Source of the DNA: Desulfobacterales bacterium HSG2
GTDB lineage: Bacteria > Desulfobacterota > Desulfobacteria > Desulfobacterales > 4be13
NCBI GenBank assembly: GCA_030378035.1
Contig: JAUCGI010000003.1
Location: forward strand, 1 to 64,000
Length of the DNA: 64,000 nucleotides
Reading direction: 5' to 3'
How positions within the stretch are numbered: position 1 is the stretch's first letter; every line of letters begins with the position of its first letter. This document shows, in pieces, positions 23,502-49,269 of the stretch. Position numbers and translations under genes: made by a program. A model generated the notes under the pieces. That model was not told where the DNA came from, ran no database searches, and saw nothing but the letters and a program-made list of their open reading frames with translations.

Positions 23502-24000
23502 TTATCCATGGTGTGCGTCTCCTCCCAATGCCCGGCCGATTTCCAGATTGTACATTCTGGCAAACTGATCCGCAATCCTGTTCGGAGACAGGGCAGGATA
23601 AGTCTCCGAGCTGCTCAGACTGACGGAATCCCTCTCATTTTTGGAAAGCGAATAAAACCTCAGCGAATGATTTCCGCGCCGGAGTTCAAACTCTTTGAGC
23701 AGCACATAACTGTGGGTCGCGATGAAAATCTGGGCACCCATCTGTTCCAGTTCCATCAGCACACTGACGACCAGGGGAATCATGGACGGATTCAGATTCA
23801 CCTCGGGTTCGTCCCAGCAGAGAAGCGATTTTCCATCCAAGGAGCCGTTTTCAATCAGGAGCCGGAGAAGGGCGAGCTTGCGTATGCCCTCCGCGACCAG
23901 GGTGAACTCGATGTCACCGGTTCTGCTTTTCAGGTAAAATTCCTCATTTTTGGCCGTGATTTCTCCTCCCTTTTTCCAGCATTTCAATGTTATTGATCAT
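23502..24000 (-). pseudogene. RecF-like ATPase copy with a large internal deletion
   Basis: The first codons (MINNIE from ATG 24000) and the C-terminal half (GGEITAKNEEFYLKSRTGD to the end) match the intact gene at 40264-41253 almost base for base. Codons about 7-175, including Walker A, have been removed, leaving the frame broken. Upstream DNA (GTAAACTCCATGTTTATAAG) also matches the upstream DNA of the intact copy. Walker B (LLCWDEPEVNLNP) persists in the open frame from 23987, but the protein would lack nucleotide binding. Confidence 0.85.
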
Positions 24001-24196
24001 CTTAGTCTGTAAACTCCATGTTTATAAGTGAAACGCTGATAGCATGAATAAAAATGATTGTCAAACCCTTTAAAAAAAAATCATTCCCGCAAAACTTTTA
24101 AGTGTCATTCCATCAAAACTTTTAAGTGTCATTCCCGTGGAAGCGGGGATCCGCTGATGCAGTCATTTTTTTTGTTTGGCAATAGTATTAATGCTG
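24001..24196. repeat. dRS3-like repeats in the gap downstream of the first ATPase gene
   Basis: Repeated TTAAGTGTCATTCC units (about 24095-24140) lead into a degenerate palindrome related to ATTCCC...GGGAAT at 24131-24152. The same units occur at 35960-36050 and 41955-42045 within the island. No gene is seen here. Confidence 0.6.
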
Positions 24197-25975
24197 TTAT
24201 GTCGAACCCTCAGTAAGCAAATCCTGCAAACTGCCCCGCGAACCCACCTGAAATTCTTCGTAAGCATAATCGTTTTCCGAAATGTCCAAGCTGTTGCAAA
24301 TCCCGCGATAAATTTCCTCTATCGAGCGTTTCTGCTCGCACATGTTTTTAATCTGATCCTGCGGAAAAGGCTTATTATCCGTACTATTCATGTTCGACCA
24401 TTCCACGCTCTGAAATGTCCATTTCTTTAACCGATATTTACACCGGGCAAAATCTTTGTCCGCACCTTTGACCACAACATAAAGATTATCGGCAAGTTCT
24501 GCTTCGGCGGTATAATCGAGATCAGGATTTGTATAAGTTATTGTCGCATGAACGGGCAATAAGAGAACTTTTTCAATGTGCGGAAGATTCCAGAGTTGTT
24601 GAATAACTGTAAACGTGTTTTCAATTTCAACTCTGTAAACCGGGCTTTTCGGATCATCATGGGACATGGGATTCAGGACAAGGGTTTTGTAAAGTTTTAT
24701 CCCTTCCTGCACCTCTGCCGGCAAAGGTTCGCTGCAATCTTCAAAAAACCTTTCAAGGTTGTTGATTAGGGTTTCAAGACGGGTAATGTCCGTTGTGCCA
24801 AAATCTTTGTTCTGAGAGGTCTTATATGCTGCCGGCAAGAGCTTTTTGATCTGCCTTTCCAGTTCTTTCCTCAGATAATTGGCGCACGCGGGATAATCTT
24901 TGATCCTGAAATAATCTTCCGCTTTCTCAAAATACGTTTTTAAAGGATCAACAATTAAAGGAACTTCAAACCTGTTCCCGTCAATCTCTGCCATAGAGGC
25001 ATACATCTCAATTGCCTTCCAATGCTCGCCTTCAAAATAGTCGCGCATCAGCTCAAACCAGGTTCTGTCATAAGTGGTCAGAAAAATTTGAAAGTCGGCA
25101 AACTTCTCCTTCAGAATCCGTAAAAGCGGGATCCGGTTCGACATATCCAGTCCGATGAAAATATCATCGAGAAAGAGAATTTTGTACTCTACTGGTGGTT
25201 CGGGCCTGCTTATCAGAATGGATGCCAAGTAAACAGAGATTGCCAAGGCCGACAGCCGCGCCTCATTCAGAATATTCAGATGTTTAATATCCGGATGGCC
25301 AAAATAATCCACTTTGAAATGAACGGCATCCCCTGAAAACGTCTGTCCTTCCACCGCCAGCGTCGGGGCAATCAGTTCCGCGTGAATATCATGGTTGAAG
25401 CAGTCCAATAAGGATTGCAGCTTTTCATTTAGCTCGCGAAAGATATCTGCCACGCCGTTATTGAAATTATCAAGTTTTTCTGCTTCATCCGTTAGCTGGG
25501 CGGATGCTTTGAGTTCTTCCCAATCCTTTTTCAACGGATTCGTGGTGATCGGGTTCTGATGATCCTGCAAAATCGTGCTGACCAATAATTCAAAAAATTG
25601 TTCCTCGAACTGATTCGGTTCAATCAGATAGGTTTTCAGGAGCTCCTTGTATGATAAAAAAGAGTGCAGTTTATTCGTATCTTCCACAAATGTAGGCTGT
25701 TGGATGGAATCCTTGGCAAGTGTAAGTTCTTCAACCGTTCCATCGTCAGCCTTGAACTCGATTTTGATAAACGTCTTTCTTTCATCAGCCTTCAAATGAT
25801 GGTGAATATTATGAGAGGAATTAAAAAAATCGGCCAGACCGAAATAGAGTGACGATTTCCCACTCCCATTTTCACCATAGACCAAAAGATTCTCACCTTT
25901 TGGCAAGGAAATCACGGATTCTTCATAAAAGGCCCGATAGGCCTTCAAAGTGATCCTGGTTATTTGTTTGCTCAT
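24197..25975 (-). CDS. RecF/SMC-like ATPase 1, paired with methyltransferase 1
   Basis: 592 residues. Walker A is YGENGSGKSS (residues 33-42); a long helical region of about 100-200 follows. The signature-like segment LNEARLSALAISVYLA precedes Walker B KILFLDDIFIGLDMS near residue 265, followed by the H-loop-like IFLTTYDRTWFE. This puts it in the ABC-type RecF/DndD group, without a visible nuclease domain. It starts 9 bases after the stop of methyltransferase 1. A homologue (29832-31622) sits at the same place relative to methyltransferase 2, with very similar Walker B blocks and divergent C-termini. An ATPase coupled to a modification enzyme suggests DNA sensing or restriction control; that is inference. 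Confidence 0.8.
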   Translation of the reverse strand: MSKQITRITLKAYRAFYEESVISLPKGENLLVYGENGSGKSSLYFGLADFFNSSHNIHHHLKADERKTFIKIEFKADDGTVEELTLAKDSIQQPTFVEDTNKLHSFLSYKELLKTYLIEPNQFEEQFFELLVSTILQDHQNPITTNPLKKDWEELKASAQLTDEAEKLDNFNNGVADIFRELNEKLQSLLDCFNHDIHAELIAPTLAVEGQTFSGDAVHFKVDYFGHPDIKHLNILNEARLSALAISVYLASILISRPEPPVEYKILFLDDIFIGLDMSNRIPLLRILKEKFADFQIFLTTYDRTWFELMRDYFEGEHWKAIEMYASMAEIDGNRFEVPLIVDPLKTYFEKAEDYFRIKDYPACANYLRKELERQIKKLLPAAYKTSQNKDFGTTDITRLETLINNLERFFEDCSEPLPAEVQEGIKLYKTLVLNPMSHDDPKSPVYRVEIENTFTVIQQLWNLPHIEKVLLLPVHATITYTNPDLDYTAEAELADNLYVVVKGADKDFARCKYRLKKWTFQSVEWSNMNSTDNKPFPQDQIKNMCEQKRSIEEIYRGICNSLDISENDYAYEEFQVGSRGSLQDLLTEGST

Positions 25976-25984: not shown

Positions 25985-28900
25985 TTAAAATTTGACTATT
26001 TGTTCAAGCATACCGATTTCCGGAACAGAATCTATAAAAAAAACCGAACCGCGAATCGGATGATCCTGCCTGTAAAATTCGGTAAATATCTCGGACACAC
26101 AGCGCATTTTATCTGACTGAGCCGAAAGGTCCGGCAGATTTTTCAGGTATTTGCCAAAGGCCCGTATTGACTTGCTGACGCTTTCCGGCAGGTATAATTC
26201 ATAGCTCAGTCCGTCTATGACATGTCCGAAAAAGAACGGCATCACTTTTTCCCTGCTGGTGGTCAGAGGCTGCTGTTTCAAAAACAGAATATAATCAACC
26301 AGACGGATAAACGGCTCCTGCTCAGATGGCGGAATTTTTTTGATCGGGATCCTTTCCACAAAGATTTTTTTATACTCAAGATACCCTCTTTCACGGGTAT
26401 GTCCGATTTGACGCATATAATAACTTGATATTTTCGAGTTCAGCACGGCAAGGAGATATTTGATCTCATCCGGATTCTCCGGCGGATTCCGGAATGTCAG
26501 GAAATTGGACGGGGCCGTAAGATAAAAATGCTCGGTATCAAGAGCGAATCTCGCCTGGGTCGCCAAATCTCCCCAGATAATTTTCGGCTTTTCAAATTCC
26601 TCCGAATAACCGCAATCGTGCAAACTGATCCAATCCTCTCCTTTGCCCGGACGTGTTTCAAGTTTTTCCCGGAATTGTCCGAGCCACTCATGAATGGCAG
26701 GATAATCTTTCTTAAGATTAATGGGAGGAACATCTTTCTCCTTTAAGCCATTATGCACATTGATCAGCCACATATCTTGAGATTCCGCTTTCCATTTTTG
26801 GATGTCCTTTCCTGTCAGGACCGGTTTGAGAAGTTCCGCATTTCGGGGATCCGCTTTGACAAGTCTCTCCCTGGTCTCCCTGTCAATAACGAAGGCTTCA
26901 TCATACCCTATTGCGATCCCCTGACAAATCTTAACATTCCACTCTTTTAAGGGAATTCCCTGCTTCTCGATTCGGGGTGTGATATCAAACATGTCTTTTG
27001 TACTTACCAACCAAGTCCCTCTCCGAGGCAACACCATCTGATAACTGTGGGTATGAACATACTCGGCAAGAGGCACCGAGGGATCAAAGTCATTGGAAAT
27101 CCGGCATAAGCGCATCTGTTTCGGATATCGCTTCTGTTCCGGATTCGCGGGTTCTTGTAGGAACAGGATATTGGTATATATGGCTGTGTAAAAAATCCGC
27201 ACATTGCCGAAATCAACCAAAAGCAGAGGCATTGTCTGTTCCGAGAAAAATTCCCGGAGCTTTGTGCCTTGGTCTGCCCGCATCCATTGATCAAATGTGA
27301 TAAAACACAACAGGCCGGACGGGGCCAGGAGTCGATGCCCTTTTTCATAAAACAGATAATAAATGTCTCCCATCCGGTCATAGCTCTGATACTGTTGTCT
27401 TTCCAACCTTACCTGCTGAAGACCGTAGAACTTATGCATCTGGATATATGGCGGTTCCCCGATCACAATATCAAACCCGCCCCTTATTCCGAACATCCAC
27501 TCCGGATCAAACCATTCGCAGGATTCGCCTGAAAACGGATTCCACGCGTCAAGCCGCAATGCTTCAGAACTTCCGACCGCTTTCCGTTCAGGCAGGCGCT
27601 TTGTCATGCGTTTCCGCATTTCCGCAAATTCTTTTCTCACAGCTACTTTTTCTTCACCATAACTCAGAAAATAGGCCGTATGCAGTTCTCTCAGTTTCGC
27701 AATTTCATCCTGAGATTCAAAAATACCCATATCTCCTTTTGGCAGATCGATAAGCGTATCCGCGCACACAAATTTGAACTCCAAGTTCGGCAAAGGCAAA
27801 ATTCCCCGGTTGCCCTCGGGATCATCATCAGCGACCTTTTCATCTGCGATCAGTGACAGAAAAAACCTCAGCTTTGACATTTCAATGGCGATTGGCTGAA
27901 TATCCGAGCCATGGATGCTGTTGCGGATGACGCTGAGTTTTCTTGTGTAATTCCGTAAATCTTTTTCCCCTTCGAGTTTTCTTCTCATCATCTTCCGTGT
28001 GGCCGGATCAGGGATGTCCGCAAGCAGTTTTTTCAGGCATTTTTCAGCATCCGGGTCGGTTTTTTGCAGAATCAGAATCATCTTCTGCAAGACACCCATG
28101 GGAAACGCGGCGGAACCGCAGGCAGGGTCAAGGATTTTCAGATGTTCCAGCGCATCGGTAACTTTCTCTTTTTCCGCGTCGGTCAGCTCTGTCTCTGTAT
28201 CCTGATATGAAATCAGCCTGATGATTTTGTTTTCATCAATCCCTGTCTTTGTGAGAAGATACTGTTTCAGGCTTTCGTCTGCCATGTATTCTGTTATCTC
28301 TCTCGGGAGATAATAACTTCCCGAGTTTCTTTTCGCAGTCTGCTCGGTTTCCGGTCTGATCTCGGCCAGGAGATTTTCAAAAATTCTGCCGAGCATTTCA
28401 GGCTCAACGGCAATTTCGGTTTCAGCCGGCGTGTTTTCTTTTATGGTAAAATGATAATGCTCAAAAATTCCGAGCAGTTCCTTACACCATTCATCAGGTA
28501 TTTTCAATGTGTTCAGATAAACAGACGGATTCGGTTCATTCAGGTGATAAAAATCATGCGGACGCGGTTCAAAAAGCCCGCCGTTCAGAAACGGAATCAG
28601 ATCCCATTCATCGCTACGCAGCTCGGGGGGGCGTTCATATTTTTTTCTGTTCAGGACTTCAAAAAACAAAGGTTCGAGAACAGAATGATAATATCCGTGA
28701 GCCAGGGGTTCGGTAACCGCTTTTTCAGACAGGATATTATCCGAAATCAGGGGGATGTTTGCCCGCGAGGTTTTCTTTTTCAGAAATTGGCAAAACAGCA
28801 GCCTTCCGATCAGCCGCGCTGCGAATTCCTTTCTCACTGTGTCATCGGGCTTCCCGGGCAATTCAAGCATGCCTTTCTCAGTCATCATTTCCGAACCGAT

Positions 28901-29629
28901 CTTTCTCCGGCCGCCGACAAGTTTTGTGAACATCTCTGCGATAGCATTGTAAAAATTCTTACTTAAAACAGAGATATCCAGGATTTTCATCCAAGCATCA
29001 TGCAGCTCGACAAAAGTTGTTACCGTTCGCTTTTTTCTTAATTCTCCGAGACTCAGATCATAAAGAATCTCAATATGCGCCCGGTGCGGATCCGCTATCC
29101 GAACATCTTTGATAAGCATCACTTTCTCAGGCACATCCTTGCTCTCGTCACTTTTGTGCAGTCTTCTTCTGATGACTGAAAGCGTCAGATACCCGCCATA
29201 CCTGAAAAGCACCATCACCGGCATGGGAAAAACCCGGTTCATCTGCCGGGTAATATCTGAAAGTTCTGTTCTGCTGTAAGCCTCGCCTTTCAGTTCAATG
29301 GCAAAGAACAGGTATGCCTCAGTGACGGTGCTGTCAACTTTTTTGGTGTCAGAAAGCATCTCCTGATCCGTCATCTCGGCATCTGACAACCGGAAAAGCA
29401 GTTCAGTCCCTTTCCATTCCGCTGTCAGAGCCTTCTGCTCAAATTTTCCGATATCAGGGATGCTGTCGTTCTCCTTTAGATAATTCTCGGAGAACTCCTG
29501 ATATGTGGGATCGTCAAGCCTGTTCTGCCGATCTGTGTCATATCCGAGGGTCTGAAAAAGACGGATTGCCGCGTCAAAAAGATCGTCCTGACCAAAATTA
29601 CGGATTGCGTTTTGAATTTTTTGTTTCAT
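25985..29629 (-). CDS. Eco57I-type DNA methyltransferase homologue 1 with altered catalytic motifs
   Basis: About 1,214 residues; the start at 29629 is chosen by comparison with its paralogues (MKQKIQNAIRNF). The first ~230 residues match the three paralogues closely and contain FFAIELKGEAYSR. The methyltransferase core is recognisable, but three motifs differ: motif X region SYYLPRE instead of YYTPRE/A (about residue 440), motif I DPACGSAAF instead of CGSGAF (about 505), and motif IV VIGEPPY instead of NPPY (about 725). The asparagine of NPPY contacts the target adenine in N6-adenine enzymes, so methylation is probably lost. The 1,200-codon frame is nevertheless intact. It may now be a DNA-recognition scaffold for the ATPase encoded next, or a gene in early decay. 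Confidence 0.85.
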   Translation of the reverse strand: MKQKIQNAIRNFGQDDLFDAAIRLFQTLGYDTDRQNRLDDPTYQEFSENYLKENDSIPDIGKFEQKALTAEWKGTELLFRLSDAEMTDQEMLSDTKKVDSTVTEAYLFFAIELKGEAYSRTELSDITRQMNRVFPMPVMVLFRYGGYLTLSVIRRRLHKSDESKDVPEKVMLIKDVRIADPHRAHIEILYDLSLGELRKKRTVTTFVELHDAWMKILDISVLSKNFYNAIAEMFTKLVGGRRKIGSEMMTEKGMLELPGKPDDTVRKEFAARLIGRLLFCQFLKKKTSRANIPLISDNILSEKAVTEPLAHGYYHSVLEPLFFEVLNRKKYERPPELRSDEWDLIPFLNGGLFEPRPHDFYHLNEPNPSVYLNTLKIPDEWCKELLGIFEHYHFTIKENTPAETEIAVEPEMLGRIFENLLAEIRPETEQTAKRNSGSYYLPREITEYMADESLKQYLLTKTGIDENKIIRLISYQDTETELTDAEKEKVTDALEHLKILDPACGSAAFPMGVLQKMILILQKTDPDAEKCLKKLLADIPDPATRKMMRRKLEGEKDLRNYTRKLSVIRNSIHGSDIQPIAIEMSKLRFFLSLIADEKVADDDPEGNRGILPLPNLEFKFVCADTLIDLPKGDMGIFESQDEIAKLRELHTAYFLSYGEEKVAVRKEFAEMRKRMTKRLPERKAVGSSEALRLDAWNPFSGESCEWFDPEWMFGIRGGFDIVIGEPPYIQMHKFYGLQQVRLERQQYQSYDRMGDIYYLFYEKGHRLLAPSGLLCFITFDQWMRADQGTKLREFFSEQTMPLLLVDFGNVRIFYTAIYTNILFLQEPANPEQKRYPKQMRLCRISNDFDPSVPLAEYVHTHSYQMVLPRRGTWLVSTKDMFDITPRIEKQGIPLKEWNVKICQGIAIGYDEAFVIDRETRERLVKADPRNAELLKPVLTGKDIQKWKAESQDMWLINVHNGLKEKDVPPINLKKDYPAIHEWLGQFREKLETRPGKGEDWISLHDCGYSEEFEKPKIIWGDLATQARFALDTEHFYLTAPSNFLTFRNPPENPDEIKYLLAVLNSKISSYYMRQIGHTRERGYLEYKKIFVERIPIKKIPPSEQEPFIRLVDYILFLKQQPLTTSREKVMPFFFGHVIDGLSYELYLPESVSKSIRAFGKYLKNLPDLSAQSDKMRCVSEIFTEFYRQDHPIRGSVFFIDSVPEIGMLEQIVKF

Positions 29630-29652
29630 CATTTCCATCCTTTCATGTCCCT

Positions 29653-29701
29653 CCTCACAGGACATTGCTTTAAACTCTCATTCTTTCAGTACCTTACTCA
29701 T
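29653..29701 (-). pseudogene. Remnant of the PD-(D/E)xK-like gene with internal deletion
   Basis: GGAGGAGGCAATGAGTAAGG and the next codons match the start of the gene at 39705-40271 (MSKVLKE). They join directly to DNA matching its last third (ending near CAATGTCCTGTGAGGA). The whole middle, including the putative active site, is missing. It lies immediately upstream of methyltransferase 1, exactly where the intact gene precedes methyltransferase 3. Confidence 0.75.
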
Positions 29702-29831: not shown

Positions 29832-31622
29832 TTACACCGCATCCGCCATTTCTTTCAAGGTTTTTCCTGTAGTTTCAGAACGGAATTCCGCATAAATATC
29901 TGCTTTCTCTGAAGCGTGTTTTTCTCCGTACATGTTATGGCTAATCATATCATACGCTTTATTTAAATCACATTCTGGAATATGGCTCAAATCCTCCCGA
30001 TGATCATTTTCAATATAATACAATGGTCGTAATTCGCATTTAGGGATTTTCCAATTATTTCCTTGTTTCAAGACAAGCACATTACCATTGACTTTTAAAA
30101 CGGTTTTTCTCTTCGCACCTTTCATCGCGCCAGTTGTGTGAGTTTTTTCAATAAAAAGTAATTCATTTTCAGATAATAATACAGATTTTTTCAAGGCTCG
30201 CAACGCGTCTGCCACTCTGAACGCTTCTTTTAATTCGTTTTTGTAAATCGGTTTCTCAAGATTGTCATGCGAGAAAGGATTTAATGTTGTCTTAATGATG
30301 ATGTCAATATCTTTGAAGGGTGTCCAATCCAGTTCCAGGTCATCTGTCATCTTTTTAAACATATCTTTCAATTCGCCTAACTCCTTTCTGACTAAAGTCT
30401 CTCCATTTTCTCCTTTCCTGAACCGATAGTTACCGAACAGCTTTTCTTTGAGTAACCGTTCATATTCTTTTCTCAAATAGTTCGCAGCAGCAGGATAATC
30501 AATGTTGGTTGCGTCTCCTCCAGACTTTTTGTGGAAATACTTTTCTGCCTTTGTATAGTAATCATCAGAAGGTGCGATGATAATCGGAAATTCAAAATCA
30601 AGTTCGTCTTTTTGTCCGACATACATTTCAATAGCCTGCCAACCTGTCTTTAAATGGAGTTTGGCAATTTCAAACCAATGCCGATCATAAGTGGTCAGAA
30701 AAATTTGAAAATCGGCAAAGTTCTCTTTCAGAATCTGCAAGAGCGGAATCCGGTTCGACATATCCAGTCCGATGAAAATATCGTCAAGAAACAGCATCTT
30801 ATAATTCGCTGGTTCTGGAATAATTTTCAACGAAGATAGGTACATACACAGCGCGAGTGCGGAGAGGCGAGCCTCATTCAAAAATTCTTCATATCTGCCT
30901 GTGATACTCGCGCCAAAGTATGTTGATGTGATCTTGATTTCTTTATCTGCCAAGAATTTTTTGTTGCCTGCGCCCTTAATGGTGAGGGTCGGTTTTTCAA
31001 AGCCAAGGGTCACATGATGATTAAAATACCGATTCAGCCAAACATTTGTTTTTTCAGCTAACTCTTCCAAAAATGACTCCAGACCATCATTGAAGCTCGG
31101 CAAGGTTGTCTTAATCACCTGTTTATACTTCTTAGTATTGGCACTCATTTGTAACGCATCATTAATGTCAGCCCAATCTTCTCCGAATTTTCGCTCGCTT
31201 TTGTCATTCGTATGGTAGGGTAAAATGGTTTCAACCAGGATAGAAAACACATCCGGGCGTTTTGCCTCATTTTCAGCCAAATAGGCGCGTAACAGGCGTT
31301 TGTATGTAAAGAACGGATTATGGCAATGCGTGTCGATCAGAAAGTTCGGAGTCGGTGCGGGTAATGTGCTGTCATTTTGATAGACAAAGGTCTGATCAGT
31401 ATCCATGATGACTTTGACATAGGGGGAACTGTCGTCAAATATGTTTGCCGCAACGGATTTTGACTGATTCGCTGCCGCAAAGAAATCTTCCATGGCTTTA
31501 TACAATGAGCTTTTACCGCTCCCGTTTTCGCCGTAAATCAGCATGCTTTTTCCTTCGACTGAAATGGTATGTGTGCGGTAAAAAGCACGGTAGTTATGCA
31601 GTTCGATGGTTCTGATTTTCAT
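29832..31622 (-). CDS. RecF/SMC-like ATPase 2, paired with methyltransferase 2
   Basis: 596 residues, homologous to the ATPase at 24197-25975. Walker A is GENGSGKSSL (31-40), the signature-like block FLNEARLSALALCMYLSS, Walker B KMLFLDDIFIGLDMS (near 277) and H-loop-like FLTTYDRHWFE. Between Walker B and the end the two ATPases diverge strongly, and this gene looks richer in A+T than its neighbours. Its start overlaps the methyltransferase 2 stop by four bases (ATGA), so the two products are made together. Function is inferred as an ATP-dependent sensor or effector working with the methyltransferase; no nuclease motif is clear. Confidence 0.8.
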   Translation of the reverse strand: MKIRTIELHNYRAFYRTHTISVEGKSMLIYGENGSGKSSLYKAMEDFFAAANQSKSVAANIFDDSSPYVKVIMDTDQTFVYQNDSTLPAPTPNFLIDTHCHNPFFTYKRLLRAYLAENEAKRPDVFSILVETILPYHTNDKSERKFGEDWADINDALQMSANTKKYKQVIKTTLPSFNDGLESFLEELAEKTNVWLNRYFNHHVTLGFEKPTLTIKGAGNKKFLADKEIKITSTYFGASITGRYEEFLNEARLSALALCMYLSSLKIIPEPANYKMLFLDDIFIGLDMSNRIPLLQILKENFADFQIFLTTYDRHWFEIAKLHLKTGWQAIEMYVGQKDELDFEFPIIIAPSDDYYTKAEKYFHKKSGGDATNIDYPAAANYLRKEYERLLKEKLFGNYRFRKGENGETLVRKELGELKDMFKKMTDDLELDWTPFKDIDIIIKTTLNPFSHDNLEKPIYKNELKEAFRVADALRALKKSVLLSENELLFIEKTHTTGAMKGAKRKTVLKVNGNVLVLKQGNNWKIPKCELRPLYYIENDHREDLSHIPECDLNKAYDMISHNMYGEKHASEKADIYAEFRSETTGKTLKEMADAV

Positions 31623-34600
31623 GATGCATGGACCTCCAATCCTTTGATGATTCGTATTTCTCTGACGCTATCGAAATAATATAGTCGTTGTCGGACCGGA
31701 TGCGTGGGGTCATACAGTCGGGTAAATACGGTTTTAATCCGTGCGAATGTGTGTTCCCGGGATTCTGTCGGCATGATCGCAGGCAAATCGTCCAAGTATT
31801 TCAGAATATCCTTTCCCGAACGTTTCAGACTGTCTTCAAAATACAGCTCACAGACGCAGCCGTCTGTGACTTGTTCAAAAAATGACACCATCATACGGTC
31901 TTTCGCTTTCGACAGCGTAGTCTCAATTTTTTTGAGGAACAGAATATAATCCACAAGGGTTATGAACGGCTTCTGTTCAGAGGGTGAAATTCTTTTGATC
32001 GGAATTTTTTCCACAAAGATTTTTTTATACTCAAGATACCCCCCTTCACGGCTGTATCCGGTCTGCCGCATATAATAACTTGAAATTTTCGAGTTCAGCA
32101 CCGCAAGGAGATATTTGATCTCCTCCGGATTCTCCTGCGGATCTCGGAGTGTCAGCAGATTGGACGGGGCAGTAAGATAAAAATGCTCCGTGTCAAGCGC
32201 AAATTTTGCGTTGATCGCCAAATTTCCCCAGATAATTTTCGGCTTTTCAAATTCTTCCAAATAACTGCAATTGCGTAAGTTTGTCCAATCCTTTCCTTTG
32301 TCCCGCCGTTTTTCAAGTTTTTCCCGGAATTGTCCGAGCCACTTCCGGATGACAGGATAATTTTTCTTAACATCAATCGGAGGAATATTTTTTTCCTTTA
32401 AGCCGTTATGTGTGTTAATCAGCCACATATCCTTAAATTCCGCTTTCCACTTTTGAATGTCCTTTCCTGCTAAAACAGGTTTGAGGAGTTCCGCATTTTT
32501 GGGGTCTTCAATAAGTTTGTCTTTCGTCTTTCCGTCAATAATGAATGCCTTATTACAGCCTGTTTTAACACCATAATTAATTGCAATGTTCCAATCTTTT
32601 AACGGAATTCCCTGTTTCTCAATCCGGGTTGCGATGTCAAAGGTGCCTTTTGCACCCACCACCCAGGCGGCTTTCTCAGGCTGCCTCATCCGATAACCGT
32701 GGGTACGGACATACTCGGCAAGCGAATCTGTCAGATCGAAGTCATTGTCAATCCAACACAGAAGCTGTTTCTCATTACGAGTCCGTTTCGGATTGGCGGC
32801 TTTTTGCAGGAGCAGGATATTGGTGTTTACTGCTGCGTCAAAAACCGGAACATTGCCGAAATCAATTAAAAGCAGGGGATTTGTCTGTTCCGAGAAAAAT
32901 TTGCGGAGCTTTACGCCGTAGTTTGCCCGCATCCATTTATTGGATGAGATAAAACACAGCAGACCCGGTGCGGCTAAGAACTGATATCCTTTCTCATAAA
33001 ACAGACAATAAATGTCTCCCGTTCGGTCATAGGTCTGGTACTGTTGTTCTTCCCACTCTGTTTTCTGGGAAGTGCTGAATTTTTGTATCTGAACATATGG
33101 CGGATTCCCGATCACAATGTCAAACCCGTCCCTTATGCCGAACATCCATTCCGGATCAAACCATCCGCAGGATTCCCCTGAAAACGGATTCCACGCCACA
33201 AGCCGCAAAGTTTCGGAATCTCTGACCGCTTTCCATTCAAGCAGTCGCTCTGCCATACGTTTCCGTACTTCCGCGAATTTTTTTCTCACAACTCCTTTTT
33301 CTTCGTCATAAGTTGAAAAATAGGCAGTATGCAGTTCTTTCAGTTTCACAATCTCATCCTGAGATTCAAAAATACCCATATCTCCTTTTGGCAGCCCGAT
33401 CAGGGTATCCGCGCACACAAATTTGAACTCCAGGTTCGGCAAAGGCAAAATTCCCCGGTTGCCATCGGGATCATCATCGGAGATTTTTTCCTCCACGACT
33501 AATGACAGAAAAAACCGCAGCTTTGAAATTTCCGTTGCGATTGTCTGAATATCGGCACCATGGATGCTGTTGCGAATGATGCCGAGTTTTCTTGTATAAT
33601 TCCGTAAATCTTTCTCCCCTTCGAGTTTTTTTTGCATCATTCCCCTTGCAACCGGGTCCGGGATATTGGCGAGCAGTTTTCCAAGCCATTTTTCGGAATT
33701 CGGATCTGTCCGTTGCAAAATCAGAGTCATCTTCTGCAAAATGCCCATGGGAAACGCGCCGGAACCGCAGGCGGGGTCAAACATTTTCAGATGTTCCAGG
33801 GCATCGGTGACTTTGTCTTTTTCTGCTTCAGTCAGATCTGTCTCCGTATCCTGATATGAAATCAATCTGCTGATTTTATCCTCACCGATCCCTGTCTTTG
33901 TCAGAAGATACTGTTTCAGGCTTTCATCAGTCATGTATTCCACTATCGCTCTCGGAGTATAATAACTTCCTGTGGACCTTCTCGCACTCTGACCGGTTTC
34001 CGGATTAATCTCCGCCAGCAGATTCTCAAAAACTCTTCCGAGCATTTCGGGATCAATGGCAATTTCGATTTCAACCGGCGTGTTTTCTTCTATGGTAAAA
34101 TGATAATGCTCAAAAATTCCGAGGAGTTCCTTGCACCATTCATCAGGTATTTTCAATGTGTTCAGATAAACAGACGTGTTCAGTTCATTCAAATGATAAA
34201 AATCATACCGGTGCGGTTCAAAAAGCCCGCCGTTCAGAAACGGAATCATATCCCATTCATCGCCACGCAGCTCGGGGGGGCGTTCATCTTTTTTTCTGTT
34301 CAGGACTTCAAAAAACAAGGGTTCGAGAACAGAATGATAATATCCGCAAGCCCGGGGTTCGGTAACCGCTTTTTCAGACAGGATATTATCCGAAATCAGG
34401 GGGATGTTTGCCTGCGAGGTTTTCTTTTTCAGAAATTGGCAAAAGAGCAGCCTTCCGATCAGCCGCGCTGCGAATTCTTTTCTCACAGTATCATCGGGAT
34501 TGCCGGGCAGTTCCGGTACGCGTTTTTTAGTCATCTTTTCCGAACCGGTTTTTCTCTCACCGCCGACAAATTTTCTGAACATCCTTGCAACATCATTATA

Positions 34601-35278
34601 AAAATTCTTATTTAAAACAGAGATACTGAGCGTTTTCTCCCATGCATCATGCAGCTCCGCAAAGTTTGTCACCGTATGATTTTTTCTTAATTCTTCAAGA
34701 CTCAGATCATAAAGAATCTCAACATGGGCCCGGTGTGGATCCGCTATCCGTACATCTTTGATAAGCGTCATTTTCTCAAGCACATCCCGGGTCTCCTCCT
34801 TCTTCTGCAGCCATCTCCTGATAACCGAAAAGGTGAGATATTCGCCGTATCTGAAAAGAACCATCACCGGCATGTGGAAAACCCTGTTCATCTGACGGGT
34901 GATGTCCGAGAGTTCTGTTCTGCTGTAAGCCTCGCCTTTCAGTTCAATGGCAAAGAACAGGTATGCCTCAGTGATGGTGTTGTCAATTTTTTTGGTGTCA
35001 GACAGCGATTCCTGATTTTTCATCTCGGCATCTGTCAACTGGAAAAGCAGTTCAGTCCTTTTCCATTCCGCTGTCAGAGCCTTCTGCCCAAATTTTCCGA
35101 TATCAGGGATGCTGTCGTTCTCCTTTAGATAACTCTCGGAGAACTCCTGATATGTGGGATCGTCAAGCCTGTTCTGCCGATCTGTGTCATATCCGAGGGT
35201 CTGAAAAAGACGGATTGACGCGTCAAAAAGATCATCCTGGCCGAAATTGCGGATTGCGTTTTGAATTTTTTGTTTCAT
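31619..35278 (-). CDS. Eco57I-type DNA methyltransferase 2 (probable N6-adenine)
   Basis: 1,219 residues. Canonical motifs are present: SYYTPRAIVEYM (motif X region), FDPACGSGAF (motif I, SAM binding) and VIGNPPYVQI (motif IV). The C-terminal part (DIQKWKAEFKDMWLI, FEKPKIIWG, YLLAVLNSKISSYY) is the target-recognition-like region of COG1002/Eco57I enzymes. The N-terminal ~230 residues contain FAIELKGEAYSR, whose ExK pattern could suggest a nuclease domain as in type IIG enzymes, but I cannot confirm it. It is closest to methyltransferase 1 (25985) across the middle. ATPase 2 follows with a 4-base overlap. Confidence 0.88.
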   Translation of the reverse strand: MKQKIQNAIRNFGQDDLFDASIRLFQTLGYDTDRQNRLDDPTYQEFSESYLKENDSIPDIGKFGQKALTAEWKRTELLFQLTDAEMKNQESLSDTKKIDNTITEAYLFFAIELKGEAYSRTELSDITRQMNRVFHMPVMVLFRYGEYLTFSVIRRWLQKKEETRDVLEKMTLIKDVRIADPHRAHVEILYDLSLEELRKNHTVTNFAELHDAWEKTLSISVLNKNFYNDVARMFRKFVGGERKTGSEKMTKKRVPELPGNPDDTVRKEFAARLIGRLLFCQFLKKKTSQANIPLISDNILSEKAVTEPRACGYYHSVLEPLFFEVLNRKKDERPPELRGDEWDMIPFLNGGLFEPHRYDFYHLNELNTSVYLNTLKIPDEWCKELLGIFEHYHFTIEENTPVEIEIAIDPEMLGRVFENLLAEINPETGQSARRSTGSYYTPRAIVEYMTDESLKQYLLTKTGIGEDKISRLISYQDTETDLTEAEKDKVTDALEHLKMFDPACGSGAFPMGILQKMTLILQRTDPNSEKWLGKLLANIPDPVARGMMQKKLEGEKDLRNYTRKLGIIRNSIHGADIQTIATEISKLRFFLSLVVEEKISDDDPDGNRGILPLPNLEFKFVCADTLIGLPKGDMGIFESQDEIVKLKELHTAYFSTYDEEKGVVRKKFAEVRKRMAERLLEWKAVRDSETLRLVAWNPFSGESCGWFDPEWMFGIRDGFDIVIGNPPYVQIQKFSTSQKTEWEEQQYQTYDRTGDIYCLFYEKGYQFLAAPGLLCFISSNKWMRANYGVKLRKFFSEQTNPLLLIDFGNVPVFDAAVNTNILLLQKAANPKRTRNEKQLLCWIDNDFDLTDSLAEYVRTHGYRMRQPEKAAWVVGAKGTFDIATRIEKQGIPLKDWNIAINYGVKTGCNKAFIIDGKTKDKLIEDPKNAELLKPVLAGKDIQKWKAEFKDMWLINTHNGLKEKNIPPIDVKKNYPVIRKWLGQFREKLEKRRDKGKDWTNLRNCSYLEEFEKPKIIWGNLAINAKFALDTEHFYLTAPSNLLTLRDPQENPEEIKYLLAVLNSKISSYYMRQTGYSREGGYLEYKKIFVEKIPIKRISPSEQKPFITLVDYILFLKKIETTLSKAKDRMMVSFFEQVTDGCVCELYFEDSLKRSGKDILKYLDDLPAIMPTESREHTFARIKTVFTRLYDPTHPVRQRLYYFDSVREIRIIKGLEVHAS

Positions 35279-35917: not shown

Positions 35918-35944
35918 AATCATACCAACTTGAATGCCTGTCAT

Positions 35945-36069: not shown

Positions 36070-39000
36070 TTAATCTCTGATTTTCTTTTTGGCAATATTA
36101 TCAATGCGTTTTGCATTGTATTCCTTTTCGGAGATGATTTTTTCTATGTCAGGATCGACGATTCTCACCTCTTCGTAGGTGAGGTCGTAGAGTTTATAGA
36201 CCATGAGGTCTATCTGTTTCTCCAATTCAGCGGTGTCGGCGTCAGGGCTTTCCTTTTTCAAAGCTGTAATATGATCTGCTTTGGATTCAAACATGGCAGT
36301 TACACCTGCCGCAGTCGGATGAAGAGTGGGAACAACCCGAAGCTGGGGGGCCTGAAATTGAAAATATCCTCCGCTCATTCGGAGCGCACCAAAAAATTGT
36401 TCGTAAAAGAACATAAATAATTTTGAGTTGCAGTATGCCGCCAGATATTTGAGAGAAACTCTCTCTTTCGGAGCATGGAAGCAATTTGTGTTTACGGACG
36501 CATAATCACCATCCGAATCCAGGAATGCCTCACACAAAACAGCCATTTTTGCGAACAATATCTTTGGTGACCGGTATATTGCCTTTCTGCGAGATATGAC
36601 ATTTGCTTTGTCCAAAGGCAAAAATGGTGTGACATAGCTGCTTCCCCTGTGTCTGAGTGCTTTAATTCCCCAGAGCGAGGCGTACCTGTCAATTGTTCCG
36701 GTGTTGATCACTTTTAATGTATCCTTCCCCTTGTCATTTGAAAAATGCATGCCGTAAGACTCCGCTTCGGATGCCGTTGATGTGGCGTTAATCTCTCCGT
36801 ATTCTGACAGAGGCTCGGTTCCGTCAATAAACGACTGAAGATAGTCGGCCTTGTCTGAAAGCAGAAATCCCCAGAGATTATCCGCCAGCATCGTGAGCAT
36901 GTCATATTCGACGAAGACAGTCTTAAATTTTTCCGTGTCGAAAACAGCGTCTTGTCTGTTAACTGGTTGCAAAACCGAAACATGCTTTTTTTCAGTGGAA
37001 ACGTGTTTTCTGAGAACAGTGATAACCGGATAAACAGATATTTCGCTGAACACATTGACGGATGACAGATCAACCAGCTTCTGAACAGTCGAACAGTTGA
37101 GCATGTGGGCTCTCAGAGCAGTTGCATATTTGGCAGACAAATATTTGTTCGGGGTAATCAGAGACATCTGCCCGTTGTTCTTCAACAGTTCCATGCCCTT
37201 CTCAAAGAATAAGACGAACACATCATAAGTCCCTTTGGATGTTCTGAATATTTTCTTATATTCCTCTCTCCGTTTTGTTCCGTAAATATTTTTAAAATCT
37301 GTCGCATTGATATACGGCGGATTCCCGATCACAATATCAAATCCGTCCCTTATCCCGAACATCCATTCCGGATCAAAAAACTCCGCAGAAGTGTTCTGGT
37401 TATACGGATTCCAGGATGCAAGCTGTTTTGCAGTGCTTTCATCACCAAAACCGGATGCCAGAACTTTGGCGATTTTCTCCCTTGTTTCCTTGTCTTCTTT
37501 TCTGTATTTCCTTTTTGTTCTCGGCGTCTTTGCGCTGAAATGACTGTGTCGTATCTCCTTTAGTCTGTTTTCAAGTCTCTCTGTTTCAGGATTGTCAAAA
37601 AGGTTTCTGTTATCTTTCGGTTTTTCAATCTTTATCAGCGTATTTGCCGCCACAAATTTGGTCTCCAAGTTCGGCAGGGGCCTGATGCCGAAATTCTCTC
37701 TTGTCTTATCAGGAATCTGCTCCGCAATCAGAGAAATAAAAAATCGGAGCATGCTGATCTGCACCGCAACCGGCTGAATATCCACGCCATAGATGGAATT
37801 TTCTATCAGATAAAGCTTTCTGCCGTAATCCGAGGTGTTGAAATCAAATGCCTTTTCTATCTCCTGAAGCTTTTGCTGTCTCTCTTTCCTGTCTCCCAAA
37901 TTATATGCTGTCTCAGTCTCCCGGATCGCCCTCTGTTTTTGCAGATCCCGCCATCTGCTGTTGTCGCTGTCAAGCTTGCCGAGAATAAAAACCAGTTTGT
38001 GCAGTATGCCCATGGGAAAAGCACCGGATCCGCAGGCAGGATCAAGGATTTTCAGTTCCGACACCGCTTCGACTATCGAAGACACCTCATCATCTGTGAA
38101 AGCATGTTCTTTTTCGGTATATGCAAAAAGAACATCCAGACCGGTTTTAATGTCATCCTCTGTGGCATCTTCAACTTTCTCCGCAACAAGATTGGAAAGA
38201 GACGCCTTCAGACTCTCATCAGCCATATAGTCAACGATCTCCCTCGGAGTGTAAAAAGAGCCTGTCTGCTTTCTGGCGGTGGTTTCTGTTTCGGGATTAT
38301 AGGAGGCAAGAAGATTTTCAAAAACTCTTCCGAGCAGTTCCGGGTCCAGGGCAATCTCTTCTGTGACGGGCGTGTTTTCCGCTATGGTGAATTTGTATTT
38401 GTCCAGAAGATTTATAAGCCCTCTCACCTCATATTTTTTGTTTCCTGTTCCGTATGTTTTATTCAGATCAAAGTTTTTTTCCTCAGCAAAAAACAGAAAA
38501 TCGGGAACTCTGAGCGGATTATCGTCTCTGTCGGAAAAGCCGTCGATTCTGATTATTCTGTCTCCGCCCCTGGGTCCTTTTTTGGTCGGATGGGGTTTGT
38601 CAAGACAGTCAAACAGTCCGCCGTTTAAGAACGGGATTTCTTCAAACAGCTTTAACACCTCATCCCTGCCAATTTCAAACAGATGTTCGTATCTGTAAAG
38701 ATTGGTCACATTATAGTTCTGCCCTTTTCTTCTGAATGCCCTTTTGCCCTGTTCCTGATTCAGAGTGGCGAAAAAAAGATTTTGCAAAATCGCCTTGTAA
38801 AAGGTGCTCCGGTTTTTATCCCTGAAATTCAGTATGCTGTCCAGTTCGTTTTTATCAAACAGTTTTTTGGGGATCAGCCCTTTTTCCCTGACAAACCAGA
38901 CAAATATCAGCCGTGTCAGCAACCTGATAATGGCAGTGGCATTCCTGATCTCCTCATTTGCCTCGCCGTCTTTGGGAAAATCCACATTTTGCAAGGCCCA

Positions 39001-39708
39001 GAAATACCAGTTGGCAAGTTCCCCGTAAAACTTTTTATTCAGCTCCGAGCAGTCCAGCACCTTCTGCCAGGCATTATGCAGCGCGACAAAATTTGTGACG
39101 GTGTATGTTTTCCCTAACGCATCCAGGTCCAGATCGGACAGTATCTCAATATGCGCCCGGTGCGGATCCGCTATTCGGATATCTTTGACAAGGGTTACTT
39201 TTTCAAGCACATCCCTGCTCTCGTCTCTTTTGTGCAGTCTTCTTTTGATGACCGAAAGTGTCAGATATTCACCGTACCTGAAAAGCAGCATTACCGGCAT
39301 GGGGAAAACCCGGTTCATCTGTCGGGTGATATCCGAAAGTTCTGTCCGGCTGTAATCCGCATCTTTCAGCTCAATGGCAAAAAACAGGTATGCCTCAATG
39401 ATGGTGTTGTCAATCTTTTTGGTGTCAGAAAGCATTTCCTGATCCGTCATCTCGGATTCTGACAACTGAAAAAGCAGTTCCACGCGTTCCCAGTGGTCTG
39501 TCAGAGCCTTCTGCCCGAATTTTCCGATATCAGGGATGCTGTCGTTCTCCTTTAGATAACTCTCGGAGAACTCCTGATATGTGGGATGATCAAGCCTGTT
39601 CTGCCGCTCTGTGTCATATCCGAGGGTCTGAAAGAGACGGATTGCCGCGTCAAAAAGATCATCCTGACTAAAATTGCGGATTGCGTTCTGAATTTTTTGT
39701 CTCATCAT
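36070..39708 (-). CDS. Eco57I-type DNA methyltransferase 3 (probable N6-adenine)
   Basis: 1,212 residues with SFYTPREIVDYM, LDPACGSGAF (motif I) and VIGNPPYINATD (motif IV). After the conserved first ~220 residues it follows a different middle lineage from methyltransferases 1 and 2 (KVLDCSELNKKFYGELANWY, RLIFVWFVREKGLIPKKLFD), shared with methyltransferase 4. The recognition region is distinct from the other three. The final ~40 residues (YDLTYEEVRIVDPDIEKIIS) are nearly identical to those of methyltransferase 4. Its start overlaps the stop of the PD-(D/E)xK-like gene by four bases, tying it to the ATPase and nuclease-like genes upstream. Confidence 0.88.
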   Translation of the reverse strand: MMRQKIQNAIRNFSQDDLFDAAIRLFQTLGYDTERQNRLDHPTYQEFSESYLKENDSIPDIGKFGQKALTDHWERVELLFQLSESEMTDQEMLSDTKKIDNTIIEAYLFFAIELKDADYSRTELSDITRQMNRVFPMPVMLLFRYGEYLTLSVIKRRLHKRDESRDVLEKVTLVKDIRIADPHRAHIEILSDLDLDALGKTYTVTNFVALHNAWQKVLDCSELNKKFYGELANWYFWALQNVDFPKDGEANEEIRNATAIIRLLTRLIFVWFVREKGLIPKKLFDKNELDSILNFRDKNRSTFYKAILQNLFFATLNQEQGKRAFRRKGQNYNVTNLYRYEHLFEIGRDEVLKLFEEIPFLNGGLFDCLDKPHPTKKGPRGGDRIIRIDGFSDRDDNPLRVPDFLFFAEEKNFDLNKTYGTGNKKYEVRGLINLLDKYKFTIAENTPVTEEIALDPELLGRVFENLLASYNPETETTARKQTGSFYTPREIVDYMADESLKASLSNLVAEKVEDATEDDIKTGLDVLFAYTEKEHAFTDDEVSSIVEAVSELKILDPACGSGAFPMGILHKLVFILGKLDSDNSRWRDLQKQRAIRETETAYNLGDRKERQQKLQEIEKAFDFNTSDYGRKLYLIENSIYGVDIQPVAVQISMLRFFISLIAEQIPDKTRENFGIRPLPNLETKFVAANTLIKIEKPKDNRNLFDNPETERLENRLKEIRHSHFSAKTPRTKRKYRKEDKETREKIAKVLASGFGDESTAKQLASWNPYNQNTSAEFFDPEWMFGIRDGFDIVIGNPPYINATDFKNIYGTKRREEYKKIFRTSKGTYDVFVLFFEKGMELLKNNGQMSLITPNKYLSAKYATALRAHMLNCSTVQKLVDLSSVNVFSEISVYPVITVLRKHVSTEKKHVSVLQPVNRQDAVFDTEKFKTVFVEYDMLTMLADNLWGFLLSDKADYLQSFIDGTEPLSEYGEINATSTASEAESYGMHFSNDKGKDTLKVINTGTIDRYASLWGIKALRHRGSSYVTPFLPLDKANVISRRKAIYRSPKILFAKMAVLCEAFLDSDGDYASVNTNCFHAPKERVSLKYLAAYCNSKLFMFFYEQFFGALRMSGGYFQFQAPQLRVVPTLHPTAAGVTAMFESKADHITALKKESPDADTAELEKQIDLMVYKLYDLTYEEVRIVDPDIEKIISEKEYNAKRIDNIAKKKIRD

Positions 39709-42061: not shown

Positions 42062-45000
42062 TTAATTTCCGGTTTTCTTTTTGGCAATATTATCAATGCG
42101 TTTTGCATTGTATTCCTTTTCGGAGATGATTTTTTCTATATCAGGATCGACGATTCTCACCTCTTCGTAGGTGAGGTCGTAGAGTTTATAGACGATGAGG
42201 TCTATTTTTCTTTCAAGCAAGGTAGTGTCAGCATCAGAGTTTCTATTTTTGATGCTGAGGATATTATCGACAATCGTTTCAACAGGCTTCGTTTTTTTGG
42301 TAGTGGGAATTGGGAAATTCTTCATAAACACAGCACTCGGTTCATAGTAACCATTTTGAAGCTTTGCCAACAATTTCTCAAAAAGCCACATGACAACACT
42401 TGAATTTAACACACCAAGCAGATATTTTGACGCGCCCGGAATGATAAAAGCTTTTTGGTTTGTATAGTAATTGTCTTCATCCCAAGTAAATTCATTGCGT
42501 TTACAGATATTTGGATAGATAATCTTTGGCTGCTCAAATTCTTGCCAATACGCAATGTTATCCTGAATCTCAAACCATTTATAGCTACCGGCTTTCCGAC
42601 CATTTTTGCCATCCGGAGTGAGTCGTTCCTTATATTGATACAGATGCTTATGAATTGCAGGATAGTTTTTAATATTAGTTCCACGCCTTGTAAATATAAT
42701 CCATAAATCCTGTGGGGCCAAGCACCATCTTTTTACGTCCCGTCCTCGCAAAAAAGGTTTCAAAACCTCTTCGGAAGACGAGTCCTCATCAATCAATCGC
42801 TCCTTTGTTACACTGTCCACGATAAAAGCTTTGTTGAAACCAGTTACAATGCCACGATAGAATCTTCCATTTACATATTCCCCTAACGGCTTTCCCACCT
42901 TACGCAATTTTTCAAGCAGATTTAAAACAGAATGTGGTTCAAATCGCCAGGCATCCGCACTAAGTTTATTTTGCGGAACATAAAAACCGTCTTTCAGGAA
43001 AATTTCAGGGAATGCTTCTATCGGATTACCAAGTTCCCAATTCAGGGCGCGGATATTTGACGGTCCGGCTTTGGCGGATTTTTCAAAGATAATGATACTC
43101 GGATAGGCAATAGCCGTAAAAACGGGCGCATCACCAAAATCAATAAGCTGACGGATACAAACGCTGTTCCTTAAAAATTCCCGCAGTTTCTTTCCATAAG
43201 CTGCCCGAAAATATTTGTTGGAAGAAATAAATGAAAGAATACCTCCCGGTTTGAGAGAATTAAAACCTCGCTCATAAAAGAAGACATACAAATCAGAGGT
43301 TCCTGTATAACACTTGTATTGTTTTAGCAAGATCGGCTTGAGATGTTTGATTTTTTCATGCCGCACATACGGCGGATTCCCGATCACAATATCAAACCCA
43401 TCCCTTATCCCGAACATCCATTCCGGATCAAAGAACTCCGCAGAGGCGTTCTGGTCATAAAGGTCCCATTTGGCCAGTTTCTTAGTCGTATCTGTGGAAA
43501 ACCCCTTTTTAGCGAGCTGTCTGCTGATCTCCTTTCTCAGCCGTTTATCTTCCGCCATACACCGCTTCTTGGTATCTCTTGTCCGCGCGTTGAAATACCG
43601 TTCCCGAACCGTTTTCAGATCGTCCTCCATACTGAAAAGTTTGGTGTCCTTCAGGCCCGTCTGGCCTGATTCCTCAATGCCGATAAGGGTGTTCGCGGCG
43701 ATAAACCGTGTCTCGAGATTCGGCAGCGGCAGTATCCCGATATTCTCTTTTTCCTCATCTGTTTTCTGGTCCACCACTAAGGAGATAAAGAAACGGAGTT
43801 TGGCAATCTGCACCGCGACAGACTGGATATCCACGCCGAAGATGCAGTTCTGAATCAGATAGAGCTTGCGCGCATAATCGAGTTCGTTGTTACCGAAAAT
43901 CTCATCGATGTTCTCAAGCCTCTCATTCAGCTCACGGACCGCCTTGTCCCTGGCCCTGTCATCATTTATCCGCTCCGCCGTCTCTATGTCCTGATTTATC
44001 TTCCGGGTCTCATTTTCAATCTGCCATTCTTTCCACCGGGCATTCACCGGGTCGGTTTTGCGGAGGATATGGAGCATCTTATGGAGGATACCCATGGGGA
44101 ACGCTCCGGAACCGCAGGCCGGATCGAGTATTTTCAGTTGATGGAGCGCGGCGATCAGCGCCTCGGTCTCCTCCTCGATGAAACGATGATCTTCTTCTGT
44201 GTAACTCAGAAGATGACGCAGTTTCCCGTTAATCTCCTTCTTTTCCGCATCTGAGAGCCGCTTCGGAGAAGGGGCGATCTCCGCCCGAACCGGCTTCTGT
44301 GTCCCGAACAATCTTCCCCGGGAAGCCCCTTTCCTCAGAACAAAACCGGCTCTGCCCTCATAAAAATCAGTCAGCCTGTTCTCCAAATACGCGATCAGGG
44401 ACTCATCCGCCATGTAACTGACGATCTCACGGGGTGTGTAAAAAGAGCCGGTCTGCTTGCGTGCTGTGGTCCCGGTCTCCGGATTGTAGCTGGCCAGCAG
44501 ATTCTCAAAGGCCCGTCCCAGTAGTTCCGGGTCCAGAGCGATCTCCTCCTCCACCGGCGTGTTCTCCGCAACGGTGAACTTGTAGCGTTTCAGCAGGTCG
44601 ATCAGCCCGCGGACCTGATATTTCCTGTTCCGGGTTCCGTAGTCCCTGTTCAGATCCTCGGACCGGCTTTCGGAGAAGAACAGAAAGTTGGGGAGATGGA
44701 GCCTGTTGTCCTTCCGGTCTGAAAACCCGTCAATCCTGGTCACGGGTTTCTCGCTGTCAAGACACTCGAACAGGCCCCCGTTCAGAAAAGGCGTCTTTTC
44801 AAGAAGTTTCAGAATCTTGTTCGGTGTGCGGAAACAACTCCGGTACCGGTAACAGTTGTGCATCATGTAACTCTTGTTCTTATCCTGATATCGCTTCTCA
44901 GTCCTGAATTCTCTGCTCTTCATCGGGGTGTTCAGGGTGGCGAAAAAGAGATTCTGGAGAATCGCTCTGTAATAGGTCCCGCTTTCGGGAGAGAAATCCC

Positions 45001-48900: not shown

Positions 48901-49245
48901 GGATCTGATATTCACCCTGGCTTCTATCCAGTCACTGCATTCTTTTGCAACGGATTTTTGCCGGAGCCTGCTATGAAGCGGAATCACCAACTGGTCATCT
49001 TCGATTTCAAATTCTTTCCTGTCTGTTTTTGAAGGATCAAGAGAACGGATAAAAGCCGGTTCGCCAAACAGAAAATTGAGGGATTCGATATTGTTCAGCT
49101 TGTCTTTCAGGTGCTGATATGCATAAATCGTGAAATAGGCTGATACCACAGAAAGCCTGCTCCCCTCATCAATCTGCTGTTTTAAAAATTTCCCGACACT
49201 TCCTCTTTTATGATTGTCTTTGATTGAAGAAGGTATGAGAGTCAT
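45916..49245 (-). CDS. PLD-domain SNF2-type helicase
   Basis: About 1,109 residues from ATG 49245, with AAAGG upstream. The N-terminal phospholipase-D-like domain shows FLHGKMYHI (H123-x-K125) and GSSNFT, one HKD-type active site that would pair as a dimer. The helicase part has Walker A ADSVGLGKTF (near 273), DEAH-box VVIDESHNF (near 365), LLSATPVNN (near 408) and motif VI QRFGRIDRLGS (near 828), the SNF2 superfamily 2 set. C-terminal helices are long and charged. Helicases with N-terminal PLD nucleases occur in several phage-defence systems, where they travel on and cut DNA. It is upstream of methyltransferase 4. Confidence 0.88.
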   Translation of the reverse strand: MTLIPSSIKDNHKRGSVGKFLKQQIDEGSRLSVVSAYFTIYAYQHLKDKLNNIESLNFLFGEPAFIRSLDPSKTDRKEFEIEDDQLVIPLHSRLRQKSVAKECSDWIEARVNIRSVAKSNFLHGKMYHISNNGNQKAILGSSNFTVRGLGLGGNPNIELNMEVTDDRDRADLLNWFEEIWEDNHLVKDVKADVLRYLEQLYAENDPEFIYFKTLYHLFEKFLSEQRRGGLLDENTGFFDTKVWNMLYAFQKDAVKGAINKILRHNGCVLADSVGLGKTFEALAVIKYFELLNNRVLVLCPKKLSDNWTVFQAQNNSLLNPLIDDRLGYTVLSHTDLSRDSGRSVSNIDLGAINWGNYDLVVIDESHNFRNNTRGKRDEEGHIIRKSRYEKLMADIINSGVRTKVLLLSATPVNNDLKDLRNQLYFISGGKEDAFYDKTDVKHLAQTMKEAQKTFTRWADPKKNGTRDVKKLLEKLDSSFFKLLDELTIARSRKHIQTYYKEEMERIGAFPKRLPVISRAPDIDTKDEFPSYDGINREIMTYKLSLFNPWAYVRDEWKSFYEKKAGKTVIAFSQENREHFLIGMMKVNFLKRLESSIESFETSMERTMEKITGLQDRIRAYKAAVSDSPEIESPEIYDEDDTELNDANSIGKKLKYDLAHLDLDLWLKDLKSDKDALVLLKNSAKAVTPDRDEKLGVLKSLIREKTEKPINDGNQKVIVFTAFTDTANYLHENLLPFATEELNLHIALVSGSGTNRTTLGKTRFEHILTNFSPISKNRDKIKEMPQDEEISILIATDCISEGQNLQDCDYLINYDIHWNPVRIIQRFGRIDRLGSRNKKIQLVNFWPTDDLNNYINLKDRVEARMALVDITATGQDNLLRKDQIRGLIEDDLNFRNRQLKRLKKEVLDLEEIDENISLSEFTLDDFRVELANYIEKNREKLQNAPLGLYAVVPSPGSEFFRSSEIGDMSDSAKDIIRPGVIFCLRQKGDTGGNETVNPLSPYFLVYVRRDGTVRFNYTHAKQILEIFRLLGNGVDAPYDELCDLFDKETKSGSEMREYNLLLSRAISEIRSVFKKQVNRKLLRGRGGIIPKSERPEKSDQFELISWLVIK

Positions 49246-49269
49246 GTTTTTTTCCTTTCTCATTTTTAA

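Follow-up and report, generated by a model that had tools for sequence, protein, structure and literature searches.

Is a DNA methyltransferase whose catalytic motifs have been rewritten kept by its bacterial host as a reader of DNA, or is it a duplicate that has not yet acquired its first stop codon? This question is raised by M1, one of four related methyltransferases (M1 to M4) encoded on the minus strand of the window, i.e. the whole 64,000-nucleotide stretch of Desulfobacterales bacterium HSG2 analyzed here. A sequence-only reading of the window had claimed that M1 carries T to L, G to A and N to E substitutions in its key motifs yet retains an open frame of 1,200 codons, and had proposed that it became a non-catalytic recognition subunit acting with the adjacent ATPase 1. 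The cluster members and the domains of M1 are located as follows:

45916..49263, minus strand: PLD-Snf2 helicase (HKD+Snf2), common to the cluster
42062..45886, minus strand: M4 methyltransferase, intact motifs
36070..39708, minus strand: M3 methyltransferase, intact motifs
31619..35278, minus strand: M2, the sister methyltransferase, intact motifs
29832..31622, minus strand: ATPase 2, with a 4-nt overlap with the end of M2
29678..29701, minus strand: remnant start (MSKVLKE*) of a 208-aa gene, upstream of M1
25985..29665, minus strand: M1, Eco57I/PglX-like methyltransferase with target-recognition domain (TRD), altered motifs, open frame
28955..29629, minus strand: M1 N-terminal domain, residues 1-225
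26150..26992, minus strand: M1 TaqI_C/MmeI-type TRD, about residues 880-1160 (Pfam PF12950, 6.6e-14)
24197..25975, minus strand: ATPase 1, RecF/SMC-like, Walker A GENGSGKSS and LFLDD intact
23502..24167, minus strand: decayed 190-aa/HEC-02A ATPase unit directly downstream of ATPase 1, with the 190-aa gene gone and the ATPase internally deleted

In the order of transcription, the cluster comprises the PLD-Snf2 helicase, M4, a 190-aa gene, a HEC-02A-like ATPase, a 208-aa gene, M3, a near-identical copy of the 190-aa gene, M2, ATPase 2, M1, ATPase 1, and the decayed third 190-aa/ATPase unit. Relatives from many phyla exhibit a basic unit of one PLD-Snf2 helicase and then one methyltransferase-TRD protein, with the helicase gene usually directly upstream of the single methyltransferase; the four methyltransferases found here are therefore duplicated forms of a protein that combines modification with specificity, and they serve a single helicase. 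None of the cluster proteins attains the curated NCBIfam cut-off of any named system. The whole cluster is bracketed by direct repeats of ~179 bp (22035-22211 and 49751-49929, 91% identical) and its G+C content is mostly lower than that outside, which suggests an inserted island. An 842-bp duplicate (35372-36213 and 41364-42205, 97.5% identical) encodes the 190-aa protein, for which we found no family match; its copies adjoin those of the HEC-02A-like ATPase, one of which, at 23502-24112, is truncated. The 208-aa protein (39705-40331), located between the HEC-02A-like ATPase and M3, is of unknown family and has a D/ExK-like stretch, FVEVKDP.

Read from the homologous start at 29629, the M1 frame (25985-29629) encodes 1214 aa with zero internal stops, and an in-frame upstream ATG at 29665 lengthens it to 1226 aa. 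The protein is 73% identical to M2 and contains both the methyltransferase fold and the TRD, according to Pfam (PF07669, PF12950) and to an AF2 model, which shows a complete methyltransferase-TRD chain (pLDDT 78.9). Among solved structures in the PDB, the model matches CamA best, followed by BseCI, BrxX/PglX, MmeI and BpuSI. The N-terminal domain keeps the family-conserved R128, N131, P137, R155, H182 and H185. A PD-ExK nuclease considered in this domain (AIELKG) was rejected, as its E and K are not conserved across 28 homologs (residues 1-225).

Aligned with about 70 family homologs spanning many phyla, M1 shows the reported substitutions in a frame of 1214-1226 codons, together with two further altered stretches:

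28307..28309, minus strand: T441L, motif X, SYYTPR to SYYLPR (T in 67/67 homologs)
28109..28111, minus strand: G507A, motif I, CGSGAF to CGSAAF (G in 67/68 homologs)
27455..27457, minus strand: N725E, motif IV, GNPPY to GEPPY (N in 69/69 homologs)
27287..27295, minus strand: SNK to FDQ, residues 779-781, motif-VI region
26912..26923, minus strand: TGxN to IGYD, residues 903-906, conserved start of the TRD

At the first three sites M2, M3 and M4 carry S[YF]YTPR, CGSGAF and GNPPY. M1 alone in the alignment has L at 441 and E at 725, while A at 507 occurs in one other homolog. In the last two stretches SSNKW has become TFDQW and TGCNKAF has become IGYDEAF; SNKW and TGxN recur in most relatives that possess the TRD type of M1. 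Across the 52 columns conserved at ≥95%, M1 departs only at T441, G507 and N725, and M2, M3 and M4 depart at none; all three departures fall among the about 17 columns that form the SAM/adenine pocket (chance about 0.03). The motif losses are real and exceed chance. Relative to M2, T441L (ACT to CTC) differs at three codon positions and N725E (AAT to GAA) at two, so they are not single-base slips; compensated frameshifts could be an alternative origin, indistinguishable from substitutions.

Active gamma-class N6-adenine methyltransferases are characterized by NPPY (or DPPY) in motif IV, DPACGSG in motif I and TP in motif X, where M1 has GEPPY, DPACGSA and LP. Judged by these motifs, the loss of SAM use and adenine catalysis by M1 appears well supported. 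A methyltransferase that is still active, or of altered chemistry, might be argued from the retention of Y440/P442, DPACGS, the motif II aspartate D576 and the catalytic-loop PPY, and from the presence of the same motif I change in a homolog with NPPY (L043), but every homolog examined has T441 and N725, and E at the corresponding position marks the non-catalytic METTL14 (PMC5023411), and we regard residual activity as highly improbable.

Eroded catalytic motifs in a preserved frame, as found in M1, are one hallmark of a pseudo-methyltransferase; another is their conservation in more than one genome, and in the genomes searched EPPY is found in one MAG only. A search of 389 genomes of the class found the EPPY DNA pattern in HSG2 only, no viral contig has it, and queries with M1 and ATPase 1 gave no match in viral contigs. 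The conservation test set by the sequence-only reading, a search for the EPPY form beside a RecF-like ATPase in other genomes, thus fails for EPPY itself.

This uniqueness is what would be expected if M1 were a decaying duplicate, in which catalytic constraint was lost recently, no stop has yet arisen and no function is retained. Selection on M1 can be read in the same direction. The refuting criteria of the sequence-only reading, dN/dS near 1 or restriction of the altered motifs to one genome, yield a divided outcome. Pairwise dN/dS between M1 and M2 is 0.33-0.44, but in our own branch codon model with outgroups, whose synonymous sites are saturated, the M1 branch has omega of ~0.65, with an interval from about 0.33 to >1, and the M2 branch ~0.15; equality of the two is rejected (2dL 4.8), whereas for M1 a value of 1 is not. 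Amino-acid changes in the catalytic half are 2-3 times as numerous in M1 as in M2, with similar synonymous change, whereas in the N-terminal domain the two have equal numbers. The omega of the M1 TRD depends on the topology, being either 0.31 (1 rejected) or 0.81 (1 not rejected). Saturation of the outgroup synonymous sites makes such region-wise branch values poorly determined, and the M1-M2 contrast rests on the whole-gene omegas. Also consistent with decay are the gene remnants that flank M1 and its location in a multi-copy locus with gene conversion.

The intact frame argues against simple decay. The M1 branch comprises ~400 substitutions and contains no stops, where simulation predicts ~14 under neutrality; as 80 neutral substitutions leave a 5% chance of no stop, at most ~15% of the branch was unconstrained. 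The earlier argument that decay should have yielded stops hence holds for most of the branch, and their absence leaves room for a neutral phase no longer than ~80 substitutions (P = 0.05). A terminal phase of about this length, in turn, predicts a mean omega near 0.28, which the likelihood profile disfavours (2dL about 8-9), and so short a phase does not readily produce multi-hit codons at two invariant sites. With both the absence of stops and the omega profile against it, simple decay is disfavoured; we consider it rather unlikely, though a serious rival to retention.

The gene conversion between M1 and M2 is evident from tracts of the N-terminal half where the two are identical at synonymous sites (64 codons, permutation p < 0.001). 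Together with a clean ATP2/ATP1 recombinant found in genome G002 (see below), it would fit a silent reservoir from which M2 draws stored TRD or N-terminal sequence by recombination, switching specificity. None of the tracts lies in the TRD, and a donor needs neither an intact frame nor a ribosome-binding site nor an ATPase partner; we hold this role to be very improbable.

What, then, might M1 do if it is retained? M1 and ATPase 1 form an operon, in which the ribosome-binding site of ATPase 1 overlaps the M1 stop (TAAGGAG). The C-terminal half of ATPase 1 is constrained, with dN/dS of 0.21 against its counterpart in G002. ATPases 1 and 2 are about 35% or more alike in their N-terminal halves and almost unrelated in their C-terminal halves, as if effector or coupling domains had been swapped; the C-terminal halves gave no family match, AF2 gave no usable model of ATPase 1 (pLDDT 33), and no relatives of ATPase 2 were found in phages.

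In the genomes and plasmids traced, the RecF-like ATPase recurs beside members of the M1 enzyme family. Relatives of ATPase 1 come immediately after a methyltransferase whose motif IV is intact in G052, G187, G497, G653, G461, G648 and a Prevotella replicon, and in G678 a single gene lies between the two. In G697 (L126:1-5937) the adjoining methyltransferase has NLSY in motif IV and is fused in frame to the PLD-Snf2 helicase (1979 codons); this fusion may be real, or a product of decay or of assembly, the MAG being 68% complete. Motif-IV damage was found in two of the 11 methyltransferases beside the ATPase vs none of ~60 others, in a post hoc comparison of small numbers.

Other relatives lack the methyltransferase domain altogether. 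In G002, a genome from the family of the host, a 386-aa TRD-only ORF of the M2 type abuts the ATPase (L082:12789-15781). The ATPase itself is the recombinant mentioned above, with an ATP2-type N-terminal half, an ATP1-type C-terminal half and a crossover near the conserved Walker B segment. The degenerate 41-codon N-terminus of the ORF has omega of about 1.3 and its TRD about 0.33, for which omega = 1 is rejected with 2dL of 23 under the better-fitting topology and 3 under the other. On the conjugative plasmid pANSO36B of Nostoc cf. commune SO-36 (L107:10985-13431), a free 338-aa TaqI-like TRD overlaps a RecF-like ATPase by 4 nt, and the 25-kb stretch examined contains no other methyltransferase homology; this is possibly a minimal two-gene recognition module. 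The Thiospirochaeta plasmid pSpe encodes a 285-aa protein beside the ATPase and, to judge from a weak TRD match (8e-7), possibly represents a further pairing with a free TRD. A similar arrangement in G200 was rejected, since the locus is IS-interrupted and truncated and its TRD remnant is insertion debris. As the ATPase pairs with a TRD even without a methyltransferase domain, it appears to travel with the recognition domain, and some of these pairings seem able to do without the methyltransferase domain.

The gene overlaps themselves admit another explanation, namely that the M1 frame is kept only for expression of ATPase 1, through translational coupling or polarity, its protein being useless. 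In addition to the TAAGGAG arrangement, overlaps of about 4 nt join the ATPase to the methyltransferase or TRD in M2-ATPase 2, G052, G187, G648 and the Nostoc pair, and coupling accounts for an open frame with relaxed amino acids. The strong Shine-Dalgarno sequence of ATPase 1, on the other hand, makes it odd that 1200 codons should have to be translated in full, and both the conserved TRD sequence in G002 and the TRD-only gene kept in Nostoc are left unexplained, which renders coupling improbable as the sole reason.

Retention for recognition accommodates these relatives: those that keep only the DNA-reading part beside the same ATPase suggest that M1, too, may be kept to recognise DNA. We propose that M1 is a pseudo-methyltransferase, derived by duplication from the methyltransferase-specificity protein of a restriction-modification-like system with a PLD-Snf2 helicase, which would have retained its N-terminal domain and TRD for DNA recognition and lost SAM use and adenine catalysis. 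Most likely, it would bind the target site, leave it unprotected and pass its occupancy to ATPase 1. That M1 acts in this non-catalytic way, with ATPase 1 and/or the shared helicase, is the reading we favour over its rivals, at about even odds; its inactivity, its binding to DNA, its membership of a complex and any defensive role are what we infer, and we can only speculate that it reads methylation or the absence of methylation. The proposal of a recognition subunit has gained independent support from the TRD-ATPase pairs in G002, Nostoc and possibly pSpe and from the NLSY protein of G697; it is plausible, and stands on firmer ground than when the sequence-only reading put it forward. Against it weigh the restriction of EPPY to one MAG, the M1 omega interval that extends above 1, the altered TGxN in the M1 TRD, the decayed gene copies directly on both sides of M1, and the G200 remnant that is plainly IS debris.

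More tentatively still, and with doubt, we suggest that the RecF-like ATPase and the TaqI/MmeI-type TRD constitute a sequence-reading module with optional methylation, in which a restriction-type specificity domain would sense sites for a defence response driven by the ATPase. Its TRD would be joined to an active methyltransferase in M2-ATP2 and to a dead one in M1-ATP1 and G697, and would be free in G002 and on the Nostoc plasmid. If true, this small pair of TRD and ATPase, at its most compact on the Nostoc plasmid, would separate sequence recognition from methylation in restriction-like defence.

Known systems share parts of this architecture. Type IIG/IIL proteins (MmeI, BpuSI, PADLOC REase_MTase_IIG) and CamA have, like M1, an Eco57I-like N6-adenine core followed by a TaqI_C/MmeI-type TRD, whereas M1 is without the T of motif X, the G of motif I and the N of motif IV and is accompanied by a separate PLD-Snf2 helicase and ATPase; type IIG enzymes carry the nuclease in the same chain, and the N-terminal domain of M1 exhibits no conserved PD-ExK signature among 28 homologs. 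PglX/BrxX of BREX is similar to M1 in length and domain order and matches it structurally over the full length, but M1 scores 57 bits against an NCBIfam cut-off of 400, and no other BREX genes were found among the cluster proteins examined. The cluster helicase resembles DrmD of DISARM and PLD-Snf2 anti-phage proteins (HKD+Snf2) below the curated cut-offs, with no DrmA/B/C set among the cluster proteins, and ATPases 1 and 2 show weak P-loop similarity, far below cut-offs, to the MADS ATPase MAD3 and to RecF. The role envisaged for M1 has parallels in the literature: BrxX is reported to sense sites that lack methylation (PMC11842806), and for BREX-type systems a sensor role has been proposed for enzymatic domains that are inactive (PMC12839542). 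Among eukaryotic proteins, METTL14 and MTA9 have eroded tetrads, EPPL (PMC5023411) and NALW (PMC9852454), respectively, as does M1, and retain a substrate-binding or structural role. They belong to the MT-A70 family and act on RNA or DNA in heterodimers, unlike M1, and the comparison is one of analogy only; if our reading is true, M1 would offer a bacterial parallel to these eukaryotic proteins, as a DNA methyltransferase that has become a reader of DNA without catalytic activity.
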